64,000 bases of DNA from assembly GCF_014803405.1 (NCBI RefSeq), contig NZ_JACYFG010000038.1, positions 124,001 through 188,000 of the forward strand, read 5' to 3'. Below the pieces are notes generated by a model. It did no database searches. It was not told the DNA's origin and worked only from the letters and a program-made list of their open reading frames with translations. A program made the translations under genes and the position numbers. This document shows, piece after piece, positions 4,100 through 38,609 of this stretch; positions within the stretch are counted from its first letter, which is position 1, and each line of letters starts with the position of its first letter. The DNA is from Pelagicoccus enzymogenes (GTDB taxonomy: Bacteria; Verrucomicrobiota; Verrucomicrobiia; Opitutales; Opitutaceae).

Positions 4100-4921
4100 A
4101 TGCCTACCCAAACCCTCGACCTCGACTCCCACTATGCCCTCACCGACGAGCAAATCGCCCGCTTCCGCCGCGACGGCTACATCAAGCTCAAGCACGTGCT
4201 TTCGCCCGAAGTTCTGGCTCACTACGAAACCGAAATCTCCCACATGGTCGAAAAGCTCCGCCAAGAGCACCGCGCCATGGAGCAACGAGATATCTACAGC
4301 AAAGCCTTCCTGCAAATCTCCAATATTTGGACCCAAAACGAAGCCGTGAAGGAATTCGTCATGAGCAAACGCCTCGGCCGCATCGCCACCGAGCTCATGG
4401 GAACCAACGGCGTGCGAATGTACCACGACCAAGCCCTCTACAAGGAACCCAGCGGCGGCTACACCCCTTGGCACGTCGACCAGTTCTACTGGCCCCTGTC
4501 CAACGAAAACACCGTCACCGCCTGGATTCCCCTCGTCCCCGTGCCCATGGAATGCGGCCCCCTCGAATTCTCCATCGGCAGCCAAAAGATCAAGTTCGGC
4601 CGCGATTTCGCCATCAGCGAGGAAAGCGAGAAGAGGATCGACCAACACCTGAAAGTCTCCGACTTCCCCGTCGACTCCAGCCCCTACGACCTCGGCGAGG
4701 TCAGCTTCCACTACGGCTTCACCTTCCACCGTGCCGGTCCCAACACATCTAAGAAAATGCGCAAGATCATGACCATCATCTACATGGATAAAGACATGAA
4801 ACTGCAGAAGCCCCTCAACCCAAACCAGCAAAACGACTGGGACAACTGGATGCCCGGCGCCCAAATCGGGCAAACCATCGACAGCCCCCTCAATCCTGTC
4901 ATCTACCAAGAGGATCATTGA
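4100..4921 (+). CDS. Phytanoyl-CoA dioxygenase (PhyH) family Fe(II)/2-oxoglutarate oxygenase
   Basis: A 273-residue protein of the PhyH family. The iron ligands are visible as H125-V-D127 in WHVDQFYWPL and H210 in FTFHRAGPN, followed by R211-type residues for 2-oxoglutarate. An N-terminal DEQIARFRRDGYIKL segment matches the family start. Such enzymes hydroxylate small molecules such as ectoine, quorum signals or plant compounds; the substrate is not predictable. It is divergent from the AraC regulator, which probably controls it. A hairpin at 4953-4984 follows the stop and may end transcripts on both strands. Confidence 0.88.
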   Translation: MPTQTLDLDSHYALTDEQIARFRRDGYIKLKHVLSPEVLAHYETEISHMVEKLRQEHRAMEQRDIYSKAFLQISNIWTQNEAVKEFVMSKRLGRIATELMGTNGVRMYHDQALYKEPSGGYTPWHVDQFYWPLSNENTVTAWIPLVPVPMECGPLEFSIGSQKIKFGRDFAISEESEKRIDQHLKVSDFPVDSSPYDLGEVSFHYGFTFHRAGPNTSKKMRKIMTIIYMDKDMKLQKPLNPNQQNDWDNWMPGAQIGQTIDSPLNPVIYQEDH

Positions 4922-4952
4922 CCCCCTTTCGTGGGAGCGGGCTCGTCACGCG

Positions 4953-4984
4953 AAAAAGGCGTCCGTCTCCCGACGAGCGCCTTT
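4953..4984 (-). terminator. Hairpin with T-run on the minus strand (possibly bidirectional)
   Basis: AAAGGCG (4955-4961) pairs with CGCCTTT (4978-4984), and an inner CGTC/GACG pair extends the stem. On the minus strand the 3' arm runs into five T residues, which suits the end of the tautomerase-cupin-oxidase transcript. It could also stop the dioxygenase transcript on the plus strand (three T). Confidence 0.5.
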
Positions 4985-5020: not shown

Positions 5021-5242
5021 CTAAGCCTCCGCCATCTGCATGCGATGCACGTCCGCCGCAGTCAGGCAATGGCCGCCGATTCCCCAATTCCCTTCCTTCA
5101 CCTCGTCGATCTTCACCCAGGTCACTTCCCGCAGGGCTTCCCCCTCGATCGAGGTCATGGTGTCCGTGATCTTCCGGATGATCTCCTTCTTCTGCTCAGG
5201 GGTGAATACGTTTTCGATGACTTGTAGGTTTACGAGTGGTAC
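5021..5242 (-). pseudogene. 4-oxalocrotonate tautomerase paralogue without a start codon
   Basis: This stretch is exactly the same length (222 bp) as the intact tautomerase gene at 7525-7746 and, by eye, roughly 90% identical. The frame is unbroken from PLVNLQVIENVFT to the TAG stop. The start has been lost: where the intact copy has ATG-CCA, this copy has GTA-CCA. An ATG one base out of frame and an in-frame TAA a few codons upstream leave no usable initiator. Because Pro-1 made by Met removal is the catalytic base of 4-OT enzymes, loss of that ATG should abolish function. The remaining frame looks constrained, so the loss is probably recent. A sequencing error is a less likely alternative. 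Confidence 0.75.
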
Positions 5243-5492
5243 ATCTTTTAACCTTTTGGTTTATAGTTTCGATCTGAGCAGCGAGCAAGCGCAGTACACA
5301 CGACATGGAGATCGCCCCCAATGACGTAGACTCTGGAGGCACCCATTCCACGCGGTTCGCGAAGTGCGTTTCCAAAACACCGGCAAGAGGATCCCCCTCC
5401 CAGCGGCCACGAAACAGCCGTTCCACCTTGGTGATCCAGTTGCAAAGCGACTTTCAATAGCGGTCGGCGCCTGCGCTTGACCTCTTACCGCC
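5243..5492. other. Intergenic remnant between the flavin oxidase and the broken tautomerase
   Basis: This 250-bp spacer holds a minus-strand open stretch (about 5243-5440) reading, in part, RVEWVPPESTSLG and LLAAQIETINQKV. It has protein-like composition but no clear start or family, and it runs into the dead tautomerase in a different frame. It may be a fragment of a lost gene. No SARP-type repeats like those upstream of the intact tautomerase were found here, consistent with the second copy having no promoter of its own. Confidence 0.3.
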
Positions 5493-6875
5493 CTAGACTG
5501 GCGTTATATTTTGATTCAGGTTGAAGACGTTGTCCGGATCGTACTTGGACTTCACTTCAACGAGGCGTCCATAGTTGGGCCCGAAGCCATCCTTGATGCG
5601 GTCCGTTTCCTCGCCTGTGAGGAAGTTGATATAAACGCCTGGGGCCGCAAACGGCTTCGTCGCCGCAAAGAGGTCGCGGGCCCACTGGATACAAAACTCG
5701 TCGTCTCCCGCGTCCTGCCAACGCCCGTGCATGTTCACCACCCACTTGGTATGCCGATGGCTGTAGGCGGTCTCCTCAGGAGCGACCGAGTTGCAGCACC
5801 CTTCGATGTATCCAAAAAAGATTTCACACTCGGGGCTGGGCAATGCGGACGCATACTCGATGGTCGCATCCAAAAATCCATCGGAGAGCTCCGTGAAGTT
5901 GTGAGATTTCCAATAGTTGCGCGCGCCTGGCGTCAGCAGCGGATCGAAAGCTTGCTGCCAGCCGGCAAAAGGCATTTCGCCTGCATGCACGCCCACTGGA
6001 TTACCAAACGAAACCAGTGTATCCACAATCTTCTGACCTTCCGCTGCATCTCCATTGTGGCAGAATGCCAGTACCAGCACGTCCTTGCCGTGTACATCTT
6101 CCGGGAGGAAGGGCAGCGGGGGAGCTTGACGCAGTACCACCCAAACGGCAGAGCTGGTTGGCAACGTCACGCAGTACTCGCGATAATTTTGCAGGACGCT
6201 CTTCCGCTCCTCCGCCGGGAAGACCACCAAACCAGCGGTCACCGTGCTGACCGGATGAGCTTGGAAGGTCCAACGTGTTACGATGCCGAAGTTTCCACCA
6301 CCGCCTCGCAACGCCCAGAAGAGATCGGCGTTTTCCGTTTGGCTCGCTTCCAGCACCTCGCCGGTCGCCGTGACGATTTGCACGGAGAGCAGGTTATCGG
6401 AGGTCATGCCATGTTCACGTGTCAACCAGCCAATCCCTCCACCAAGGGCCAGCCCGCTGATCCCGGTGGTCGAATTGATCCCCATGGGCACCGCCAAACC
6501 GAATTCCTTGGTCTCGTGGTCGATGTCTCCAAGAGTTGCGCCTGGGCCAGCGGTAACCGTTTTGCTGTAAGGGTTTACGGATACAGAACGTAGAGCCGAC
6601 AGATCGATCAGAAGTCGGTCGTCCGCAATCGCGTTGCCCGCAATATTATGCCCCGCCCCACGCACCGAGACCTGCAAGTCCACTTCCCTGGCAACGGCCA
6701 AGCAAGCCTTCACGTCCGCCACACCGGTGCAACGTACGATAAGAGAAGGACGCCGATCGATCATGGCGTTCCATATGGCGCGGACTTCGTCGTAGTTCGA
6801 AGCATCCGGGAGAACGATATCTCCGCGAACGGAGGCTTTGAGAGAGTCTAAGTTGGGTTGGGCAAGCGTGGTCAT
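5493..6875 (-). CDS. FAD-binding oxidoreductase, berberine-bridge-enzyme (BBE) type
   Basis: A 460-residue protein starting at MTTLAQPNLD. The PCMH-type FAD domain occupies about residues 35-210 and contains VSVRGAGHNIAG, where H76 is the probable 8-alpha-histidyl flavin attachment site. GGGIGWLTREHGMTSDNL follows. The cysteine of bicovalent BBE enzymes is absent (NSTTGISG), so the flavin is probably linked once. The BBE C-terminal motif is DPDNVFNLNQNI. Family members oxidise sugars, alcohols or aromatic compounds. It follows the cupin gene by 73 bp with a strong hairpin between them and is probably co-transcribed. An upstream extension in frame exists but is not family-like. Confidence 0.88.
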   Translation of the reverse strand: MTTLAQPNLDSLKASVRGDIVLPDASNYDEVRAIWNAMIDRRPSLIVRCTGVADVKACLAVAREVDLQVSVRGAGHNIAGNAIADDRLLIDLSALRSVSVNPYSKTVTAGPGATLGDIDHETKEFGLAVPMGINSTTGISGLALGGGIGWLTREHGMTSDNLLSVQIVTATGEVLEASQTENADLFWALRGGGGNFGIVTRWTFQAHPVSTVTAGLVVFPAEERKSVLQNYREYCVTLPTSSAVWVVLRQAPPLPFLPEDVHGKDVLVLAFCHNGDAAEGQKIVDTLVSFGNPVGVHAGEMPFAGWQQAFDPLLTPGARNYWKSHNFTELSDGFLDATIEYASALPSPECEIFFGYIEGCCNSVAPEETAYSHRHTKWVVNMHGRWQDAGDDEFCIQWARDLFAATKPFAAPGVYINFLTGEETDRIKDGFGPNYGRLVEVKSKYDPDNVFNLNQNITPV

Positions 6876-15864: not shown

Positions 15865-17253
15865 TCAATCCTCCGGACGCTCTCCGGCCGGGGCCATCTT
15901 CACCAGACGCGGAAAGAAGCGCGCCAGCGGATCCACCAGGTCGGCCTGAGCCGCCATGACTTCGTCGATGTCCTTGTAGACGTACGGAACCTCGTCGATC
16001 CCGGCCGACAACAGGCGGACTCCGCGTTCCTGCAGGAGCTTGTTGGCGTCCTTCCAGTTCAACTTCGATGCGGCTTGCTTACGGCTCATCACCCGGCCCG
16101 CACCGTGGGAGGCGGAGTTCAACGACTCTGGGTTGCCCTTGCCTCGCACTACATAAGCGGGACTCGCCATTGAACCTGGGATCACTCCCAGCACGCCTTC
16201 GCCTGCTGGAGTCGCGCCCTTGCGGTGCACGATGACTTCCTTGCCGTCGTGCTGCTCCTTCCACGCGAAGTTATGGTGGTTCTCCACGTCGAGGATTGGC
16301 TCGAGACCCAAGTTCGCTGCCACATGTTTATGGATACAAGCATGGTTCGCAGCTGCGTAGTGCCCCATCAATTCCATGGCTTGCCAGTACTCCTGGCCCG
16401 CCTTGGAATCGAGACCCAACCACGCCAAATGCTGCAGCTCCTTCGGCAATTCCGGATGCGTGTCCTTAGCCAACTTCGAGTAGTGAGCGGCTACGTTAGC
16501 ACCCGTTCCCCGGCTCCCGCTATGGCTCATCAGAGCCACATAGGTTCCCGGTTCCACGCCCAGCGACGTATCCGAAATCTCGATCTCTCCGAACTCCACG
16601 AAGTGGTTTCCGCTTCCGCTGGTTCCCAGCTGCTTCCAAGCCTTGTCCTTGCATTGCTGCGTGATCGGCGAAACCGACCAGTCACGATCCATCACATCAT
16701 GCAGACGCTTCTCCTTGAAGAAACCGCCCACTCCAAACTTGGTCTCCGTATTCAGAGCTCCCGTGAAGCGACCGTTTCCTTCGTCGCGCAGCAAACGCTT
16801 CACCGGAATATCGAATACGCTCAACTTCATACGGCAAGCTATGTCTACACCGACAGCGTACGGAATCACCGCATTGTTCGTCGCCAAAACCCCACCGATC
16901 GGCAATCCGTAGCCCGGATGTGCATCCGGCATCAAGGCGCCGCGCTCCGCTACCGGCAGGCTACAACCATTCAACATTTGCTGAATAGACATGTCCTCCA
17001 GGTCCGAGCCCCACTGACGGTAAGGAGCGGGCGTTTCACGGGCGATGTAGCGCTTTCCGGCTAGCTTCTCAGCAAGGCCGCCGAGGATCGCATCCTCTAA
17101 ATAACGGTCCGGCTTTTCCACCACGGCGGAGAGAATCAAACGCATATCCGAGGATCGCTTCCCCCCGGTGGCCAGCTGCTTAACGATATTCATTGCTTCC
17201 CGAGCGGGTTCTCCCGCGGGGATTCCTATATTTAATAAATCTTTGTTTTTCAT
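15865..17253 (-). CDS. rtcB: RNA-splicing ligase RtcB
   Basis: A 462-residue RtcB. Conserved sites seen: MPDAHPGYGLPIGGV, the metal-binding C140 in GVDIACRMKLS, GSGNHFVEFGEI, SHSGSRGTGA, the HHNF motif, and H383 in SASHGAGRVMS, the histidine guanylylated in characterised RtcB enzymes. It joins RNA 2',3'-cyclic phosphate or 3'-phosphate ends to 5'-OH ends using GTP and Mn(II). It is the last gene of the rsr, Y RNA, rtcA, DUF504, rtcB series, 8 bp downstream of the DUF504 gene. Expression is expected to depend on RtcR and sigma-54 from the promoter before rsr. Confidence 0.95.
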   Translation of the reverse strand: MKNKDLLNIGIPAGEPAREAMNIVKQLATGGKRSSDMRLILSAVVEKPDRYLEDAILGGLAEKLAGKRYIARETPAPYRQWGSDLEDMSIQQMLNGCSLPVAERGALMPDAHPGYGLPIGGVLATNNAVIPYAVGVDIACRMKLSVFDIPVKRLLRDEGNGRFTGALNTETKFGVGGFFKEKRLHDVMDRDWSVSPITQQCKDKAWKQLGTSGSGNHFVEFGEIEISDTSLGVEPGTYVALMSHSGSRGTGANVAAHYSKLAKDTHPELPKELQHLAWLGLDSKAGQEYWQAMELMGHYAAANHACIHKHVAANLGLEPILDVENHHNFAWKEQHDGKEVIVHRKGATPAGEGVLGVIPGSMASPAYVVRGKGNPESLNSASHGAGRVMSRKQAASKLNWKDANKLLQERGVRLLSAGIDEVPYVYKDIDEVMAAQADLVDPLARFFPRLVKMAPAGERPED

Positions 17254-17261
17254 TTGGTGTC

Positions 17262-17525
17262 TTACTCCTGAGGGTCTGGTCTCTTCCAGATCAGCTCATT
17301 GTTCTTGTACACTTCTCGTACGCGATGGAAGGGGATGTCATGATATAGTTTGTCCCCACAAAGAGCGGTAAAGGAAAAGGAGTTTCCTTTTTCGAATTCC
17401 ACGTTCTCCAGACCCACCCTCTCGAGTGCGGTCTGACCACGTTCGACATAGGCTATTTCGAAATCGCCTTTTCCGAACACTTCGTCCCAGCGAATTCGGC
17501 TCAGCAGTTCATGTATTGGTTGCAT
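17262..17525 (-). CDS. DUF504/MJ1316-domain protein in RNA-repair operon
   Basis: An 87-residue protein starting MQPIHELLSRIRWDE and containing IPFHRVREVYKNNELIWKR, the characteristic end of the DUF504 (UPF0248, MJ1316) domain. This domain has been predicted to recognise RNA ends with cyclic phosphates and is often tied to RtcB or 2H phosphoesterases, mostly in archaea. The longer open frame upstream is rejected because it crosses the palindromic repeat at 17541-17605. It lies between rtcA and rtcB, so it probably helps deliver damaged RNA ends to the ligase or cyclase. No catalytic residues are evident. Confidence 0.82.
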   Translation of the reverse strand: MQPIHELLSRIRWDEVFGKGDFEIAYVERGQTALERVGLENVEFEKGNSFSFTALCGDKLYHDIPFHRVREVYKNNELIWKRPDPQE

Positions 17526-17540
17526 GGTTACATCTTTCGT

Positions 17541-17605
17541 TGTGGGAAGCGGCCTTGTGCCGCGATATCGATTGTACAGATCGCGACGCAAGGTCGCTTC
17601 CCACA
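17541..17605. repeat. REP-like long imperfect hairpin between rtcA and the DUF504 gene
   Basis: Two 26-nt arms (17541-17566 and 17580-17605) are inverted copies differing at three places, around a 13-nt centre. The arms contain TGTGGGAAGCG and CGCTTCCCACA at the outside. One arm of the same sequence recurs at 47581-47606 with a single difference, which marks it as a dispersed repeat family rather than a local structure. Confidence 0.7.
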
Positions 17606-17625
17606 CGGGCATTGCCCTTTGGTAA

Positions 17626-18651
17626 TCAGCTAAGGATCTCCACCAGCCAAGAGAGTCGGCTCTCCCGCGTGGTCTGGATCTCAATATCTAAAAATTTCTC
17701 TATAATATCTTTGTTTGTCAAAAAATGCTGGCTCAAGGCCAGGGTCCGAAAGCTTCCGCCTCCAGCAAGGGCGAAGGGAAGCAACAATTGATCCGCAAGG
17801 TAGTCGCCCACCGGGGCTTCTTCCTTGGCATAGCGAACCGCTTCTTTCGCAACCTGTTTCGCTACAAACTCAGAGGTCACTCCCTTCTCGCCAAAGCCAG
17901 TGACGATCTCGGTCAACTCCTCGAATTCGTAAGCCATGGAAAGCACGTTGCCCACGCCTGCTGACCCTTCGTACTGATGGACCTCCATCTCCTTGAGGCT
18001 CAGATCAAGCACCTTGGAAAGCTCGGAAAGCTCCCGCTTACCGATACGCTCCTCGAGATTGCACAAACCGGCAACTGCCCGACGGGACTTCAGCGCTCCA
18101 CGCTGCAGCAGCTCGATCGATTCAAGCAATTTGGCCGAGCCAATCTCCGCTACGAACTGCCCTTGGCCAGCCGGATAAAATCCCGCCCGCACCAACTCGA
18201 GTTCGACCTCCGCCCCCATGCGACGCACGACGGGCAGGAAGACCTTTGAGAGGTAGTCAAAGCTAGGCGCCTTGCTATTGTGGGTGCCGCCCTCGAACTG
18301 AACGATGGATTCGCCTTGGGCGAGCAAGAGCGGCAGGAAAAGGGTTTGGAATACAAGCGAAGTGCTGCCCGCCGTACCCACGGCAAAGCTGTATTCGCCC
18401 GCCTTAACCTTACCCGGGACAAAGCTCAAATTCTGAGACTTCATTTCCGCCCCTTCCACCCTGGCTCCACAGATCTCCGTGGCTGCACGAACGCAGGTCA
18501 AGTGCTGCCGCATCAAGCCCGGCTTCGCACGCTTGGCACGAATCTTCTCAATTCGGAACGGCTTACCCGTGATCATCGACAAGCTCAAAGAGCTGCGAAG
18601 CGCTTGACCACCGCCCTCGCCCAGAGAGCCATCTATGTTGATTGTTTTCAT
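17626..18651 (-). CDS. rtcA: RNA 3'-terminal phosphate cyclase
   Basis: A 341-residue RtcA. It begins INIDGSLGEGGGQALRSS, the family signature, contains LSFVPGKVKAGEYSFAVGTAGS, and has H309 in the SQHFLTN context. That is the position of the histidine adenylylated in the E. coli enzyme. It converts RNA 3'-phosphates to 2',3'-cyclic phosphates with ATP. It starts 20 bp after the last Y RNA gene and precedes the DUF504 and rtcB genes, so it is part of the RtcR-controlled transcript. The 100-bp gap to the next gene contains a REP-like hairpin. Confidence 0.95.
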   Translation of the reverse strand: MKTINIDGSLGEGGGQALRSSLSLSMITGKPFRIEKIRAKRAKPGLMRQHLTCVRAATEICGARVEGAEMKSQNLSFVPGKVKAGEYSFAVGTAGSTSLVFQTLFLPLLLAQGESIVQFEGGTHNSKAPSFDYLSKVFLPVVRRMGAEVELELVRAGFYPAGQGQFVAEIGSAKLLESIELLQRGALKSRRAVAGLCNLEERIGKRELSELSKVLDLSLKEMEVHQYEGSAGVGNVLSMAYEFEELTEIVTGFGEKGVTSEFVAKQVAKEAVRYAKEEAPVGDYLADQLLLPFALAGGGSFRTLALSQHFLTNKDIIEKFLDIEIQTTRESRLSWLVEILS

Positions 18652-18671
18652 TGCAGTAATTGAAATTTGGA

Positions 18672-18761
18672 TGCAGCGACAAATCTTTGACGAAACTGCA
18701 GGATTCGAACCTGCACTACCTTTCGGCTTCTACCATTGTAGTTCCGTCAGCATTCGCTGCA
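18672..18761 (-). ncRNA. Y RNA 5: Ro-binding stem with T-arm and short hairpin, no D-arm
   Basis: The outer helix pairs TGCAGCGA (18761-18754) with TCGCTGCA (18679-18672). The second helix pairs GACGGAAC (18748-18741) with GTTTCGTC (18696-18689). Between the helices the 5' side has the ATGCT shared by all five units, and the 5' strand continues with ACTACA. Inside sits a tRNA-like T-arm with 6-bp stem TGCAGG/CCTGCA and loop TTCGAAT, preceded by a GCC-GAAA-GGT hairpin like a tRNA variable arm. No D-arm or acceptor helix is present. It lies directly before rtcA. Confidence 0.78.
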
Positions 18762-18770
18762 GCGTTAAGG

Positions 18771-18832
18771 GGTCGACAAGTTCATGCTAGAGACAGGACA
18801 GTTGTAAATGTAGTCCCTAACGGCATTCGACC
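18771..18832 (-). ncRNA. Y RNA 4: minimal Ro-binding stem-loop without tRNA-like module
   Basis: A 62-nt unit. Outer helix GGTCGA (18832-18827) with TCGACC (18776-18771); second helix TAGGGAC (18819-18813) with GTCTCTA (18794-18788). The internal-loop sequence ATGCCG and the ACTACAT after the second helix match the other four units, as does CTTG before the 3' outer strand. The apical loop is too short for T or D arms. It is either a bare Ro60 ligand or a decayed copy. Confidence 0.72.
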
Positions 18833-18841
18833 AGAATTGAA

Positions 18842-18980
18842 AAATGCGACAAGGTTTTATCATGACGATACTCCTGCGTGTCTACTTCCACCACTGGCAA
18901 GACGTTAACCAGCCGGGATTCGATACCCGGACGACCTTTCGGTCACAGAACCCGATGTAGTCATGACAGCATTCGCATTT
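18842..18980 (-). ncRNA. Y RNA 3: Ro-binding stem with class II (leucine-like) tRNA mimic
   Basis: Outer helix AAATGCGA (18980-18973) with TCGCATTT (18849-18842); second helix TCATGAC (18966-18960) with GTCATGA (18866-18860). The internal module is permuted: a variable-arm hairpin GACC-GAAA-GGTC (18944-18933) comes first, then a T-like arm CCGGG/CCCGG with loop TATCGAAT, a short CTGG/CCAG closing helix, and a D-arm of the leucine-tRNA kind (GTGGTGGAAGTAGACAC). The variable arm marks class II tRNA origin, unlike units 1 and 2. Confidence 0.82.
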
Positions 18981-18994
18981 AGAAGAAATTCAGA

Positions 18995-19125
18995 CACGCG
19001 ACTAAGTTTCGATGAGACATTTGCTACTGCTCTACCGAGTTGAGCTACGCCAGCCAATGTAGGTGACGGCAGGACTCGAACCTGCAACCTGTAGATTCTG
19101 ATGTAGTCCCATCAGCATTCGCGTG
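18995..19125 (-). ncRNA. Y RNA 2: YrlA-like, permuted class I tRNA mimic
   Basis: Outer helix CACGCGA (19125-19119) with TCGCGTG (19001-18995); second helix GATGGGAC (19113-19106) with GTCTCATC (19018-19011). Inside, the T-arm comes first (stem GCAGG/CCTGC, loop TTCGAGT at 19080-19074), then an imperfect acceptor-like hairpin, then a D-arm (AGCTCAACTCGGTAGAGC). This 3'-half-before-5'-half order is that of the known YrlA tRNA-like domain. Confidence 0.85.
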
Positions 19126-19144
19126 AAAGGTTTAAAAAGAACAA

Positions 19145-19280
19145 GCGCGACAAGGAATTGGAAAGACGAACGTAAGCTGCTCTACCACTGAGCTACGCGC
19201 CGATGAATTGGGCGGCGCGACGGGACTCGAACCCGCGACCTGCTGCACATGAAGCAATGTAGTCCTTCCGGCATTCGCGC
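19145..19280 (-). ncRNA. Y RNA 1: YrlA-like, permuted class I tRNA mimic with closed acceptor helix
   Basis: Outer helix GCGCGA (19280-19275) with TCGCGC (19150-19145); second helix AAGGA (19267-19263) with TCCTT (19156-19152). T-arm: stem GCGGG/CCCGT with loop TTCGAGT (19231-19225). The acceptor-like helix is perfect, CGCGCCG (19219-19213) with CGGCGCG (19202-19196), and is capped by a ten-base loop that still contains CCCA. The D-arm AGCTCAGTGGTAGAGC follows. A tRNA finder would see only halves in the wrong order. It is the first Y RNA after rsr. Confidence 0.88.
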
Positions 19281-19318
19281 AAAAGTAATATAAAGAACAG
19301 TGTTAGTATTTCAGTTAT

Positions 19319-19345
19319 ACTGGGCGACGAACCACGCCGCCCAGT
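19319..19345 (-). other. Strong hairpin directly after the rsr stop codon
   Basis: ACTGGGCG (19345-19338 on the minus strand reading) pairs with CGCCCAGT (19326-19319), with three further pairs inside, 10 bp past the rsr stop. There is no T-run, so it is more likely a 3'-end stabilising or processing structure separating the rsr message from the Y RNAs than a full terminator. Confidence 0.55.
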
Positions 19346-19355
19346 GATCAATAGT

Positions 19356-20987
19356 TTATGGAATCTGCACATCTTCGATCTTGGAAACCCAATAGTCTCC
19401 GTCGATCGGGTGGCGGGCGAAATCTGCGATTGCGGAAAAAACCGAATCTGAAAATCCACCGACATTCAATATGTCACGACGCGAGGTCGCCTGAGCCGTG
19501 GAGTAAGGCTGGATATCGATGCATACCAGCTTCGCTTTCGCGTTGCGGCGCTTCAATACTTCCCACTCCTGCATCATAGCGGTTCCTTGGCGAGATGGAC
19601 CGGAATTCACCCAAGACTCGTTGTCAGAAATAAAGACTACCAAGTCCGGAGCTTCGCGACGATCGTTCAACCACTTCAAAGGCGCGGAACAGTTGGTTCC
19701 ACCCCAGCCTAAGCTGGAGAGCGTCTTCGCGTTGGTCATCACGCTATCGCGGGGATTCAGTTCGACATTTCGCACCTTCTCCATGAACGGAAGTACCTGG
19801 GCATCTTGATTCTTTCGCAAGAAGGCGGCAGCCACCAACGCGGCCACATCCACGCACTTCACGGCAGTCGTAGATCCGCGGCGGTGTCCAGTAACTGGGG
19901 ACTGCATCGAACCGGACGAGTCCGGGCAAAGCACAACCTTACCTTCGATGGACGGAACGTTCTCGACAGCGATCTCCAAGGCATCTTGCAATGCGTTCTT
20001 GATCGCTTGAGGCAAGCTTGCCTCCGCGTTCATGTACGCAGCCAACAGCTGGTACGGGAACACGCGGGCCTTCTTGATGCGTTCCGGATTTCGCAAACGA
20101 TTCGCCACCCTGTTTACGAGGTCAGGATGCTCGAACAATCCGTGACGCTGAAACGTATTCAAATTCATACGCGTCATCTGCCAAGAAGCGTTCTTCGCGA
20201 TGCTTGCCCACTCACGGAGGCCGAGCGGCAAAGCCGTCAACATCTGGAAGGGAACGTCGGGAACATTGGCATCGAAGTCGAAACCCTTGCTCTTTCGCAG
20301 CATTCGAAGCGCCTTCTTCAAAGCAGGCGGGTTCGGTCCGTTCAAAGCGCGGTCCTTGAAAGCTTCGTATTCAGCCACCAATGACGGAAGCGCTTCAGCG
20401 TCGTAGTCCTTGCCAATCAAGTACGCGTAGAGAGCGGCACGATTCGCATCTCGAGGGCGCGGGTGAACCATCTTGATAACATCCGAGATCGATGGATTTT
20501 GACCGACCGACGAACGGAACAGCTGCTCGTCGGAGAGCTTGTACAACCACTCCTGCACGAATCGCTTCGGACGTGTACCTAAAGACTTTCGACCCACCGC
20601 TCCGGAACGCATGATCTGCACGAACACGCGAACCATCTTGGCATTGTCGAGAACCTCAAAAGCCACCCGGTCGAACAGTTCCGCATCTCGGGTGCTCAAC
20701 ACCGCGCAAAGCAGAGCCGGCATGTCCTTCATGTAAGCAGAGCGACGAGCGTAGACCGCAAGACGGGCGATGAAACCGGCATCAACCGCCTTGCAAAGCT
20801 CGACCACTCGATCCAGTTGCTCATCCGCCGAAGCGTAGAAGGTTCCGTTCAAACATCCCGTAGCCACATACTGAGCGAGGGCTTGCGTGGCAGAGCGCTG
20901 GTAGGCCACGGCACCTTGCTCGTTGCGAGCGTTGGCGGCAGGGACTCGTGAACCACGCTTTGATGTGAAAAGTGTCTTGTTAGCCAT
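19356..20987 (-). CDS. rsr: Ro60/Rsr orthologue, TROVE domain RNA-binding protein
   Basis: A 543-residue Ro60-type protein. Residues 20-340 form the TROVE HEAT-repeat ring that holds Y RNA on its outer face and single-stranded RNA ends in its cavity. Residues 345-540 are a von Willebrand A domain with an intact MIDAS (DSSGS, 356-360). In Deinococcus and Salmonella, Rsr uses Y RNA to join exoribonucleases such as PNPase for RNA decay and quality control. It is the first gene of this operon, immediately followed by five Y RNA genes, rtcA, DUF504 and rtcB, and faces away from rtcR. Confidence 0.95.
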   Translation of the reverse strand: MANKTLFTSKRGSRVPAANARNEQGAVAYQRSATQALAQYVATGCLNGTFYASADEQLDRVVELCKAVDAGFIARLAVYARRSAYMKDMPALLCAVLSTRDAELFDRVAFEVLDNAKMVRVFVQIMRSGAVGRKSLGTRPKRFVQEWLYKLSDEQLFRSSVGQNPSISDVIKMVHPRPRDANRAALYAYLIGKDYDAEALPSLVAEYEAFKDRALNGPNPPALKKALRMLRKSKGFDFDANVPDVPFQMLTALPLGLREWASIAKNASWQMTRMNLNTFQRHGLFEHPDLVNRVANRLRNPERIKKARVFPYQLLAAYMNAEASLPQAIKNALQDALEIAVENVPSIEGKVVLCPDSSGSMQSPVTGHRRGSTTAVKCVDVAALVAAAFLRKNQDAQVLPFMEKVRNVELNPRDSVMTNAKTLSSLGWGGTNCSAPLKWLNDRREAPDLVVFISDNESWVNSGPSRQGTAMMQEWEVLKRRNAKAKLVCIDIQPYSTAQATSRRDILNVGGFSDSVFSAIADFARHPIDGDYWVSKIEDVQIP

Positions 20988-21050
20988 TCGTATCGTTCTC
21001 CTTTGAGTTGAATTGCATTTCAGCGTTTTGCTGAACTTGCCCCTCTAATA

Positions 21051-21065
21051 ACACGACACGTGCCA
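21051..21065 (-). promoter_or_regulatory. Candidate sigma-54 promoter of the rsr-Y RNA-rtcA-rtcB operon
   Basis: On the minus strand TGGCACG (21065-21059) is a perfect -24 element, followed after TGTC by GTGT (21054-21051) where TTGC is expected. The spacing is right but the -12 box is degenerate. It lies 64 bp before the rsr start codon, and a sigma-54 activator gene is next door, which raises its credibility. Confidence 0.5.
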
Positions 21066-21097
21066 GCCCTTGGGCTACCGACCATAAAAACCTCACT

Positions 21098-21118
21098 AGT
21101 AATTGGTGTCCAATTACT
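21098..21118. promoter_or_regulatory. Perfect 21-bp inverted repeat, probable RtcR upstream activator site
   Basis: Arms AGTAATTGG (21098-21106) and CCAATTACT (21110-21118) flank TGT without a mismatch. It lies 33 bp upstream of the candidate -24 box and 106 bp before the rtcR start. RtcR binds as an oligomer upstream of sigma-54 promoters, so this dyad is the natural candidate site. Confidence 0.6.
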
Positions 21119-21224
21119 TAAAAAGTTTTTATTTTTCTCTAGTTCAATTTCACTAAAAATCTCGATGTTATTTTTCCTGTTTTATCTAGATTATTTTCTA
21201 CTTTTTTATTCTTCTATCTAGAAC

Positions 21225-22817
21225 ATGAAGAAGCTCGTTTCCATCGGCATTCTGGGAGTCCAGCTCGATTCCTTCGACCCTCGGCGGCGTTGGGACCGCT
21301 GGCGGCCGACCGTTTCCCTTTGCCAACAAGAAGACCTGCTCATCGACCGCTTCGAGCTGCTCTACGAGCCGAAGTTTGCCAAGCTAGCTCAGACGGTGGC
21401 TGACGACATGCAGGCCGTTTCGCCCGAGACCGAAGTAAACCAGCACCTCATCTCGATGGGAGACCCTTGGGACCTGGAAAGCGTCTACGGAGCGCTCTAC
21501 GATTTCGCCGCCTCCTACCCTTTCGATACGGAAAACGAGGACTACATTGTCCACATCACGACCGGCACCCACGTCTGCCAAATCTGCCTATTCCTGCTTG
21601 CCGAATCGCGGCACCTGCCCGCTCGCCTGATCCAAACCTCGCCTCCCAAACGCGACCCTGCGACCACGCCGGGTGACTACCGCATCATCGACCTCGATCT
21701 CTCCCGCTACGATCAACTGGCCGCCCGCTTCGAGATCGAAAAACGGGATACGGAGACACAACTCAAGTCCGGCATCGCCACCTTGAACGCCTCGTTCAAT
21801 GCCATGATCGGCGAGATCGAGCAGGTCGCCATCCGCTCCCCTCACCCCATTCTGATCACCGGCCCTACCGGTGCGGGAAAGTCGCAACTCGCCCGACGCA
21901 TCTACGAGGTCAAGCGAGCCAAACGCGGCGTCAGCGGATCTTTCGTGGAGGTCAACTGCGCCACCCTGCGAGGCGACGGAGCCATGTCCGCGCTTTTTGG
22001 GCACAAGAAAGGCTCCTTTACCGGAGCCCTCGACGATCGAGGCGGACTGCTCAAAGCCGCCCACAAGGGCGTGCTATTCCTCGACGAGATCGGCGAGCTC
22101 GGCCTTGACGAGCAGGCCATGCTGCTGCGAGCCATCGAAGAAAAACGCTTCCTTCCCCTCGGCTCTGACCAAGAGACGGAAAGCGACTTCACCTTGATTT
22201 CCGGAACCAATCGAGAGCTCTCGGAGGAAGTCCGAAAAGGCAATTTCAGAGAGGACCTTCTGGCACGCATCAATCTCTGGTCCTACCAGCTCCCGGGCCT
22301 CAGCTCGCGAAAGGAAGACATCGGGCCCAACATCTCGTATGAACTTTCCCGATACGCCAAAGACCACGGAAGACAAGTCGCCTTCAACAAGGAGGCGCGA
22401 CGCAGCTACGAGAAGTTTGCCACCAGTCCCGACGCTAAATGGACCGGCAATTTCCGCGACCTCAACGCCAGCATCACTCGCATGGCTACGCTTGCCGGAA
22501 ACCGTCGCATCAACGCTGAGATCGTCGAATCCGAAATCGATCGCCTGCAACGAAGCTGGCAAGGCCCTAAAAACGACAGTCAAGACGAGGAGCTGCTCCG
22601 CGATGTGCTCGGCACTCAGGCAGAGGAAGTCGATCCCTTCGACCAAGCCCAACTCGCTCTCGTCATACGCGCCTGCCGTGAATCGCGCAGTCTCTCCGAA
22701 GCGGGTCGCAAGCTCTTCGCCGTGTCCCGCCTGAAGAAAAAAACCAGCAACGACGCTGACCGCCTCCGCAAATACCTTTCGAAATTCGGGCTCAGCTGGG
22801 ACGATTGCCTCGCTTGA
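21225..22817 (+). CDS. rtcR: RtcR, CARF-domain sigma-54-dependent activator of RNA repair
   Basis: A 530-residue protein. Residues 1-170 are the RtcR-type CARF sensor (VSIGILGVQLDS..., YIVHITTGTHVCQICLFLLAE). Residues 185-430 are the AAA+ sigma-54 interaction domain with Walker A GPTGAGKS (213-220), the sigma-54 contact loop GSFTGA (263-268) and Walker B VLFLDEIGEL (283-292). The C-terminus carries a DNA-binding helix region (SLSEAGRKLFAVSR). In enterobacteria RtcR senses RNA-damage products and activates rtcBA. Here it is divergent from rsr with 237 bp between, containing a perfect dyad and a -24-like element. Confidence 0.95.
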   Translation: MKKLVSIGILGVQLDSFDPRRRWDRWRPTVSLCQQEDLLIDRFELLYEPKFAKLAQTVADDMQAVSPETEVNQHLISMGDPWDLESVYGALYDFAASYPFDTENEDYIVHITTGTHVCQICLFLLAESRHLPARLIQTSPPKRDPATTPGDYRIIDLDLSRYDQLAARFEIEKRDTETQLKSGIATLNASFNAMIGEIEQVAIRSPHPILITGPTGAGKSQLARRIYEVKRAKRGVSGSFVEVNCATLRGDGAMSALFGHKKGSFTGALDDRGGLLKAAHKGVLFLDEIGELGLDEQAMLLRAIEEKRFLPLGSDQETESDFTLISGTNRELSEEVRKGNFREDLLARINLWSYQLPGLSSRKEDIGPNISYELSRYAKDHGRQVAFNKEARRSYEKFATSPDAKWTGNFRDLNASITRMATLAGNRRINAEIVESEIDRLQRSWQGPKNDSQDEELLRDVLGTQAEEVDPFDQAQLALVIRACRESRSLSEAGRKLFAVSRLKKKTSNDADRLRKYLSKFGLSWDDCLA

Positions 22818-38599: not shown

Positions 38600-38609
38600 T
38601 CGTACAAAG

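Follow-up and report, generated by a model that had tools for sequence, protein, structure and literature searches.

The closest described relatives of the RNAs considered here are the bacterial Y RNAs of the YrlA type. YrlA is a circularly permuted tRNA mimic, and the Salmonella YrlA structure 6CU1 is reported in the available portions of PMC8394870 and PMC11472068. The available portion of PMC8394870 further describes modification of the YrlA head by the tRNA enzymes DusA and TruB, and the tethering of Rsr, the bacterial Ro60, to PNPase by a Y RNA. For the activator RtcR, binding of 5′ tRNA halves and a response to them are described in the available portion of PMC7790460.

The 64-kb stretch of DNA analyzed here, hereafter called the window, probably carries five paralogous Y RNA genes within an RtcR-type RNA repair operon, which share a common Rsr-binding handle and differ in the heads that guide or gate Rsr. 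The anatomy of the five units, the covariation of their helices, their gene context and the separate conservation of their heads are demonstrated in the following sections.

Gene context, unit anatomy and the common handle

On the minus strand, the gene order is rsr, five RNA units, rtcA, an MJ1316-domain gene and rtcB, with rtcR divergent on the plus strand; a divergent rtcR together with rtcA and rtcB is the gene content of an RtcR-controlled RNA repair operon. The product of rsr (19356..20987, minus strand) exceeded the cut-offs of both profiles that define bacterial Ro60, vWA_Ro60 (E 2.1e-19; 70.5 bits against 27.7) and TROVE (25.6 bits against 23), and matched the structures of Deinococcus radiodurans Rsr (2nvo, E 4.4e-24) and vertebrate Ro60 (1yvp, E 9.6e-10). 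Judged by Rsr, the closest named relative is Pelagicoccus mobilis, at 75% identity. The other minus-strand genes encode the RNA 3′-phosphate cyclase RtcA (17626..18651; PF01137, E 5.2e-78), an MJ1316/DUF504 protein with an RNA cyclic group end recognition domain (17262..17684; PF04457, E 5.4e-20) and the RNA ligase RtcB (15865..17253; PF01139, E 2.2e-84), and rtcR (21225..22817, plus strand; PF06956, E 3.8e-80; PF00158, E 1e-47) encodes the sigma54 activator of the operon. These profile matches bear out the earlier note, which had placed the Y RNAs between rsr and rtcA, and show an rsr-rtcA-rtcB operon with rtcR.

A candidate sigma54-like promoter of rsr, TGGCACG-N4-GTGTT, lies at 21050..21065 on the minus strand, with two mismatches to the consensus. 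Five matches of equal quality occur in the window, against 9.8 expected by chance; chance matches are common in 64 kb, and the weight for this candidate therefore rests on conservation, TGGCACG and the TCGTG behind it upstream of rsr being identical in four of four aligned sequences, the window included. A sigma70-like site (19287..19314, minus strand; 9 of 12 matches), ending six bases before the first unit, is a candidate second promoter and could allow separate transcription of the array, a possibility that counts against the reading favored here; it is the only such site found in 18600-21300, where 1.7 are expected by chance. No terminator-like site was found in the same interval, against a chance expectation of 2.7.

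The 704-nt gap between rsr and rtcA holds five Y RNA units, U1 to U5, of 136, 131, 139, 62 and 90 nt. Each consists of an outer stem of 6–8 pairs ending in CGA/TCG, the word ATGCYG, a second helix of 8–9 pairs, and ACTACA. A rule-based scan for these four elements, with rules written after the units had been seen, recovered five units from the gap, whereas 1996 of 2000 dinucleotide shuffles yielded none and four yielded one. Over the whole window, the same scan returned the five units and one weak site at 38602(-). The left motif CGAATGC-N4-10-ACTACA occurs five times in the 6.2-Mb genome, each time in the array, and the reversed pattern twice. ARAGORN detected no tRNA in the window. The minus-strand coordinates and lengths of the five units agree with those given in the earlier note, and the outer helix with CGA/TCG, the ATGCNG word and the second helix hold as it described them; ACTACA, which it had read as a tail, instead stands at the end of the 5′ strand of the second helix, at the start of the head.

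The handle is composed of the outer stem, the internal loop CGAATGCNG, the inner helix ending in ACTACA, and a return strand near CTTGTCG; ACTACA is counted to it because it is found in tRNA-like and bare units alike. The two helices and the CGAAUGC / CUUGUCG elements that characterize YrlA were found in all five units, as was the position beside rsr. CTTG, expected in identical or closely variant form before the 3′ outer strand, is present in U1, U3 and U4 and replaced by TTAG in U2 and TTTG in U5.

Pairing of the inner helix, which was not used for unit detection, was assessed across the 181 units of related loci described below. In the 177 units that could be parsed, it averaged 7.4 pairs, compared with 5.3 when right halves were swapped between loci. 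The 8 or 9 pairs of the window's own units were equalled by 6, 15, 1, 0 and 2 of 172 foreign right halves. Counting against the reading favored here, the first units of L085, L086 and L087 paired no better than foreign halves (90/173, 71/173 and 129/174). Outer pairs 4–8 occur as GC, CG, AT and TA, although detection itself demanded four pairs. Complementarity maintained with changed bases, which had been proposed from the five units, is borne out as covariation in the 177 parsed units.

Five heads of graded complexity

Searches with Rfam covariance models, proposed earlier as a check, gave YrlA or YrlB matches in all five units, none of which reached a gathering score. Against YrlA (RF02553), U2 scored 67.6 bits (E 3.1e-15) and U1 64.2 bits (E 3.1e-14), just below the gathering score of 69, and U5 (28.2 bits) and U3 (26.5 bits) matched weakly; against YrlB (RF02565), U4 scored 21.1 bits (E 0.18), with a gathering score of 97. 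That U3, U4 and U5 lie far under the Rfam cut-offs counts against the reading favored here. The YrlA cut-off is harsh in this clade: in 14 loci it is passed by 14 of 76 scanner-counted units and omits most of them (62/76). Since the U1 orthologue in L085 passes the cut-off at 72.1 bits, U1 and U2 belong with YrlA despite narrowly missing it. We decided against surveying with the YrlA model on its own, for two reasons. It gave matches in 7 and 9 of 14 control genomes, and one of its weak matches (G000:C12:69493-69594) extends across a tandem pair of tRNA-Gly genes, an arrangement that looks like a permuted tRNA and can lead YrlA searches astray.

U1 (19145..19280, minus strand; three orthologues) and U2 (18995..19125, minus strand; two orthologues) combine the handle with a permuted class I tRNA head. 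Their head order is that of YrlA, namely T arm, acceptor stem closed by a loop, and D arm. Aligned to the genome's own tRNAs, the D arms scored 40 in U1 and 36 in U2, above the maxima of 60 shuffles each (24 and 26). Assignment of either unit to a single isotype was rejected, the D arms fitting several class I tRNAs about equally well. The U1 heads of three relatives are 81–84% identical to that of the window, and orthologous heads share 73–84% for U1 (six species pairs) and 87–88% for U2 (three species pairs). The fold energy of U1 was no better than that of shuffles (z -0.74; 43/200 shuffles as good).

U3 (18842..18980, minus strand) joins the handle to a permuted class II head with a Leu-type D arm. 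Both features of a class II head were found: a base-paired variable arm adjacent to the T arm, formed by the hairpin GACC-GAAA-GGTC, and a D arm scoring 30 to tRNA-Leu, compared with 19 for the genome's best-scoring tRNA outside Leu and fMet and with 24 for the highest of 60 shuffles. The minimum-energy fold shows the variable arm, T arm, acceptor stem and D-side hairpin together. No head in the three nearest arrays exceeded 59% identity to U3.

Leu-type units number eight among the 181, in the window, six other Verrucomicrobiota loci and one alphaproteobacterial MAG (L026), the assignment of L026 unit 2 being thin (28, against 25 for a tRNA-Ser). A strict 4-bp variable arm was present in five of seven Leu-type units with a recognized T arm, compared with 3 of 77 class I units. 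The variable arms of six units were cut by hand because MAFFT misaligned those of the eight Leu-type units. In these six, 24 of 24 cells were paired and the covariation score was 1.0, and none of 500 shuffles attained either value. The arms of L092 (longer loop) and L095 (3-bp arm) were excluded, and this choice of pairing arms biases the test. The counts of double-change pairs and of further pair types in the six arms did not exceed those of shuffles, since 283 and 96 of 500, respectively, did as well. An 8-base T loop, sought with patterns written after some had been seen, occurs in four of eight Leu-type units and in none of 82 other scored D-arm units.

U4 (18771..18832, minus strand; 62 nt) is bare: it consists of the handle with a short loop and has neither T nor D arm. 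It is YrlB-like and not a YrlB member. Its loop word AACTGT-NN-TGTCTC recurs in the first units of L028 and L090. In the three closest arrays, its nearest counterpart is the bare third unit of L087, whose 52% identity over about 20 bases decides nothing.

U5 (18672..18761, minus strand; 90 nt; fold z -3.6) has the handle on the outer end of an acceptor-like inner helix, followed by one or more small hairpins and a T arm. The T arm abuts the 3′ strand of the inner helix, which is the arm order of an ordinary tRNA. The minimum-energy fold places two tiny hairpins before the T arm; the centroid fold retains one, the first being absent. The U5 head is 83% identical to L086 unit 4 and 61% identical to L085 unit 4. 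Of the 19 short units with a T arm but no D arm, 13 other than U5 are minihelix-like, their T arm being followed immediately by a hairpin of five or more pairs; the rule applied here would permit a 5-pair hairpin in U5 as well, contrary to its predicted fold. Taken together, the graded complexity described for the five units is confirmed, and the permuted tRNA mimicry ascribed to them applies to U1, U2 and U3 only, in which permuted T and D arms were found; U4 lacks both arms, and U5 keeps the natural order.

Further head types occur in related loci. Five proteobacterial units are apparently opened in the D loop (L025 unit 2, L028 unit 3, L159 unit 4, L160 unit 3 and L162 unit 5), four of them identified by a strict pattern and L162 unit 5 added from its fold; a first search for such units was uninformative, being dominated by T-arm similarity. 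An anticodon-like arm appears in the predicted folds of L025 unit 2, L160 unit 3, L028 unit 3 and L162 unit 5, and by eye only in L159. For L028 unit 3, 49 of 200 shuffles folded as well and two predicted folds differ. D arms matching fMet best were seen in five of the 181 units (L095 4471-4594, L096 4580-4705, L097 4492-4618, L148 5417-5550 and L151 5436-5559), although some of these assignments are thin (L151 unit 3, 26 against 24). Yet another head type has no T arm and contains a hairpin, for example GCGGCTTGATAACCCGC, that resembles an anticodon arm (L093 4518-4605; L094 5490-5591 and 5617-5715; L098 4214-4310).

Unit arrays beside related Ro60 genes

We scanned 53 loci for units, the window included; in 44 of these Rsr is 41–100% identical to that of the window, and in nine it is below 26%. 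All but one of the 44 hold one to eight units, 181 in total; some are close kin (L027, L029), so that the 43 are not independent cases. One unit was counted in 1 locus, two in 2, three in 11, four in 13, five in 11, six in 2 and eight in 3. These counts revise the figure of one or two Y RNAs in each operon, which the earlier note had called usual: only three of the 43 loci have one or two. Nor is five unusual, as it had supposed, since 16 of the 44 loci with Rsr at least 41% identical hold five or more. Most of the related Ro60 genes that we examined are accompanied by mixed sets of units similar to that of the window.

Matches were listed from a score of 22 and counted from 26, a threshold that drops one match each in L089, L097, L150 and L160 as well as the only match in L141. 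Opposite-strand matches were left uncounted (L090, L152, L158), the scanner missed one L087 unit and counted one stray outside the array in L142 (919-1038; one of the loci with four), and L030 was omitted because it represents the same genome region as L085. Reversed sequences gave three matches in 1.03 Mb. The nine loci with Rsr below 26% had no counted units, which is weak evidence, as the scanner was trained on units of this clade. A stricter pattern applied to a class sample of 384 genomes was found in 19 of 31 with a Ro60 vWA match, compared with 1 of 353 others, two draws of 384 being taken as the same set; its reversed form occurred in one genome. Within the genus, three of eight sampled genomes have the Ro60 domain, and the operon is therefore patchy.

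A T arm was recognized in 130 of the 181 units, and 89 of the 91 units with a D arm carry the elbow GG (loose pattern); neither arm was recognized in 49. Head identity inside the window's array is at most 66%. For within-array heads of at least 60 nt across all loci (142 pairs), the median is 56% and the highest value 74%, which the minimum of 73% among U1 orthologues overlaps; this overlap counts against the reading favored here.

Several loci contain other elements. Ordinary tRNA genes lie in or before 5 of the 43 arrays. In the alphaproteobacterial loci L023-L026, a tRNA gene for Pro(cgg), Gln(ttg), Lys(ctt) and Pro(tgg), respectively, stands directly behind a permuted class I unit (L023 5854-5930, L024 5942-6017, L025 5780-5854, L026 6005-6080), and in L150 (Verrucomicrobiota) genes for tRNA-Phe, -Met and -Glu (4902-4974, 5154-5228, 5425-5497) lie between rsr and the first counted unit. 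These may be spare tRNAs for replacement after cleavage. In P. mobilis (L030, about 6200-6560), an open frame with zinc-ribbon-like cysteine pairs, recognized by eye, is located between the third and fourth Y RNA. Two wastewater fragments have one bare and one permuted unit behind rsr, and the make-up behind rsr in Salmonella is likewise one bare and one permuted Y RNA. The Myxococcus phage Mx1 (L158, 4001-5650) encodes an Rsr 46% identical to that of the window, near tRNA genes; no handle-type unit was found on its rsr strand and one match on the other, which again is weak evidence from a clade-trained scanner. Three genomes of the class (L139-L141) encode a different Ro60 (vWA_Ro60 E 7e-62 to 3e-64; 21–22% identical to the window's Rsr), and no rtc genes were detected by similarity in the stretch around it.

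Proposed function and relation to known systems

In the reading we prefer, cleavage of tRNAs would lead RtcR to turn the operon on, and the handle would fix Rsr to each RNA, at the anticodon side in U1–U3, giving Rsr loaded with a mixed set of five Y RNAs. Binding of Rsr and PNPase and induction by broken tRNAs would be expected by analogy with published relatives. Each head would then guide or gate Rsr, probably together with PNPase as in RYPER, the Rsr, Y RNA and PNPase assembly of D. radiodurans, via factors that read the tRNA elbow. Charging of the U1–U3 heads is unlikely because their acceptor end is closed by a loop; the faces left to be read would be the elbow and, in U3, also the variable arm, so that different heads may meet different elbow-reading factors. 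That the heads differ in partner is plausible, because heads within the array share no more than 66% identity while U1 and U2 orthologues stay 73–88% identical between species. As 51 of 181 units have no recognized T arm, elbow reading is not the whole story.

A more specific proposal, which we hold tentatively and consider somewhat less probable than its negation, is that such arrays form a panel of tRNA effigies. One handle would have been grafted onto tRNA bodies at three places, namely the anticodon stem, the D loop and the acceptor-like helix, and the bodies would represent several kinds of tRNA (class I, class II of Leu type, initiator-Met type and T-arm minihelix). Each particle would hide one face of the tRNA and show another, and the set would sort tRNA enzymes and broken tRNAs to Ro60, PNPase and Rtc after tRNA damage.

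The tRNA heads might instead act as decoys that soak up tRNA-cutting toxins or nucleases and spare real tRNAs under attack, which we consider unlikely. The anticodon-like arm kept in the predicted folds of D-loop-opened heads (L025 unit 2, L160 unit 3, L028 unit 3 and L162 unit 5) and the real tRNA genes that 5 of the 43 arrays contain or have between themselves and rsr would suit such a role. In U1–U3, however, the handle takes the place of the anticodon loop, U4 has no tRNA head, and a decoy would have no need of a Ro60 handle; in addition, YrlA fragments were not detected in Salmonella according to the available portion of Hughes et al. Quite unlikely, in our judgment, is a model in which any unit could replace any other as a lid that covers and stabilizes Rsr, additional copies raising only the amount. 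It draws on the handle common to all units, on the 49 of 181 units without a recognized T or D arm, and on the regulation of RNA access to Rsr by prokaryotic Y RNAs described in the available portion of PMC4726728, but near-identical copies are absent (within-array maximum 74% over 142 pairs), and heads are retained between species at 87–88% for U2 and 73–84% for U1. That the units are functionless tRNA-gene debris fitting a Y RNA model by chance is very improbable: the chance route is real for weak YrlA matches, as the tandem tRNA-Gly genes on G000:C12 demonstrate, but it is at odds with the handle motif, the helix covariation, the linkage to rsr and the conserved orthologues of U1, U2 and U5.

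On the preferred reading of a shared Rsr handle with head-specific guidance, the array presents one docking handle with different tRNA shapes kept apart in evolution, and thus a ready-made head-swap experiment. It also bears on roles of bacterial Y RNAs beyond the tethering of PNPase. Among the titles and abstract openings listed in a literature search, none describes arrays, class II heads or D-loop grafts.

Compared with known systems, U1 and U2 resemble YrlA in handle sequence, in the permuted T arm, acceptor and D arm, and in their site beside rsr in an rtc operon; the differences are that U3 has, in addition, a variable arm of class II and a D arm of Leu type, that U5 keeps the natural order, and that five units lie in one operon. 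Like YrlB (RF02565), U4 is a short RNA of an rsr operon in which the handle bears no tRNA head, but it scores 21.1 against a cut-off of 97, and its loop word connects it with the short units found in L028 and L090. RYPER likewise pairs Rsr with a Y RNA, whereas here five Y RNAs stand beside RtcR and Rtc genes. The Salmonella rsr-yrlBA-rtcBA operon, as presented in the available portion of PMC7790460, has the same layout, with rtcR opposite to rsr, Y RNAs behind rsr and the rtc genes after them; it carries two Y RNAs instead of five, and here an MJ1316-domain gene lies between rtcA and rtcB. U3, U5 and the D-loop types are accordingly variants of known Y RNAs, and the distinctive point of the array is its heads, not the number five.
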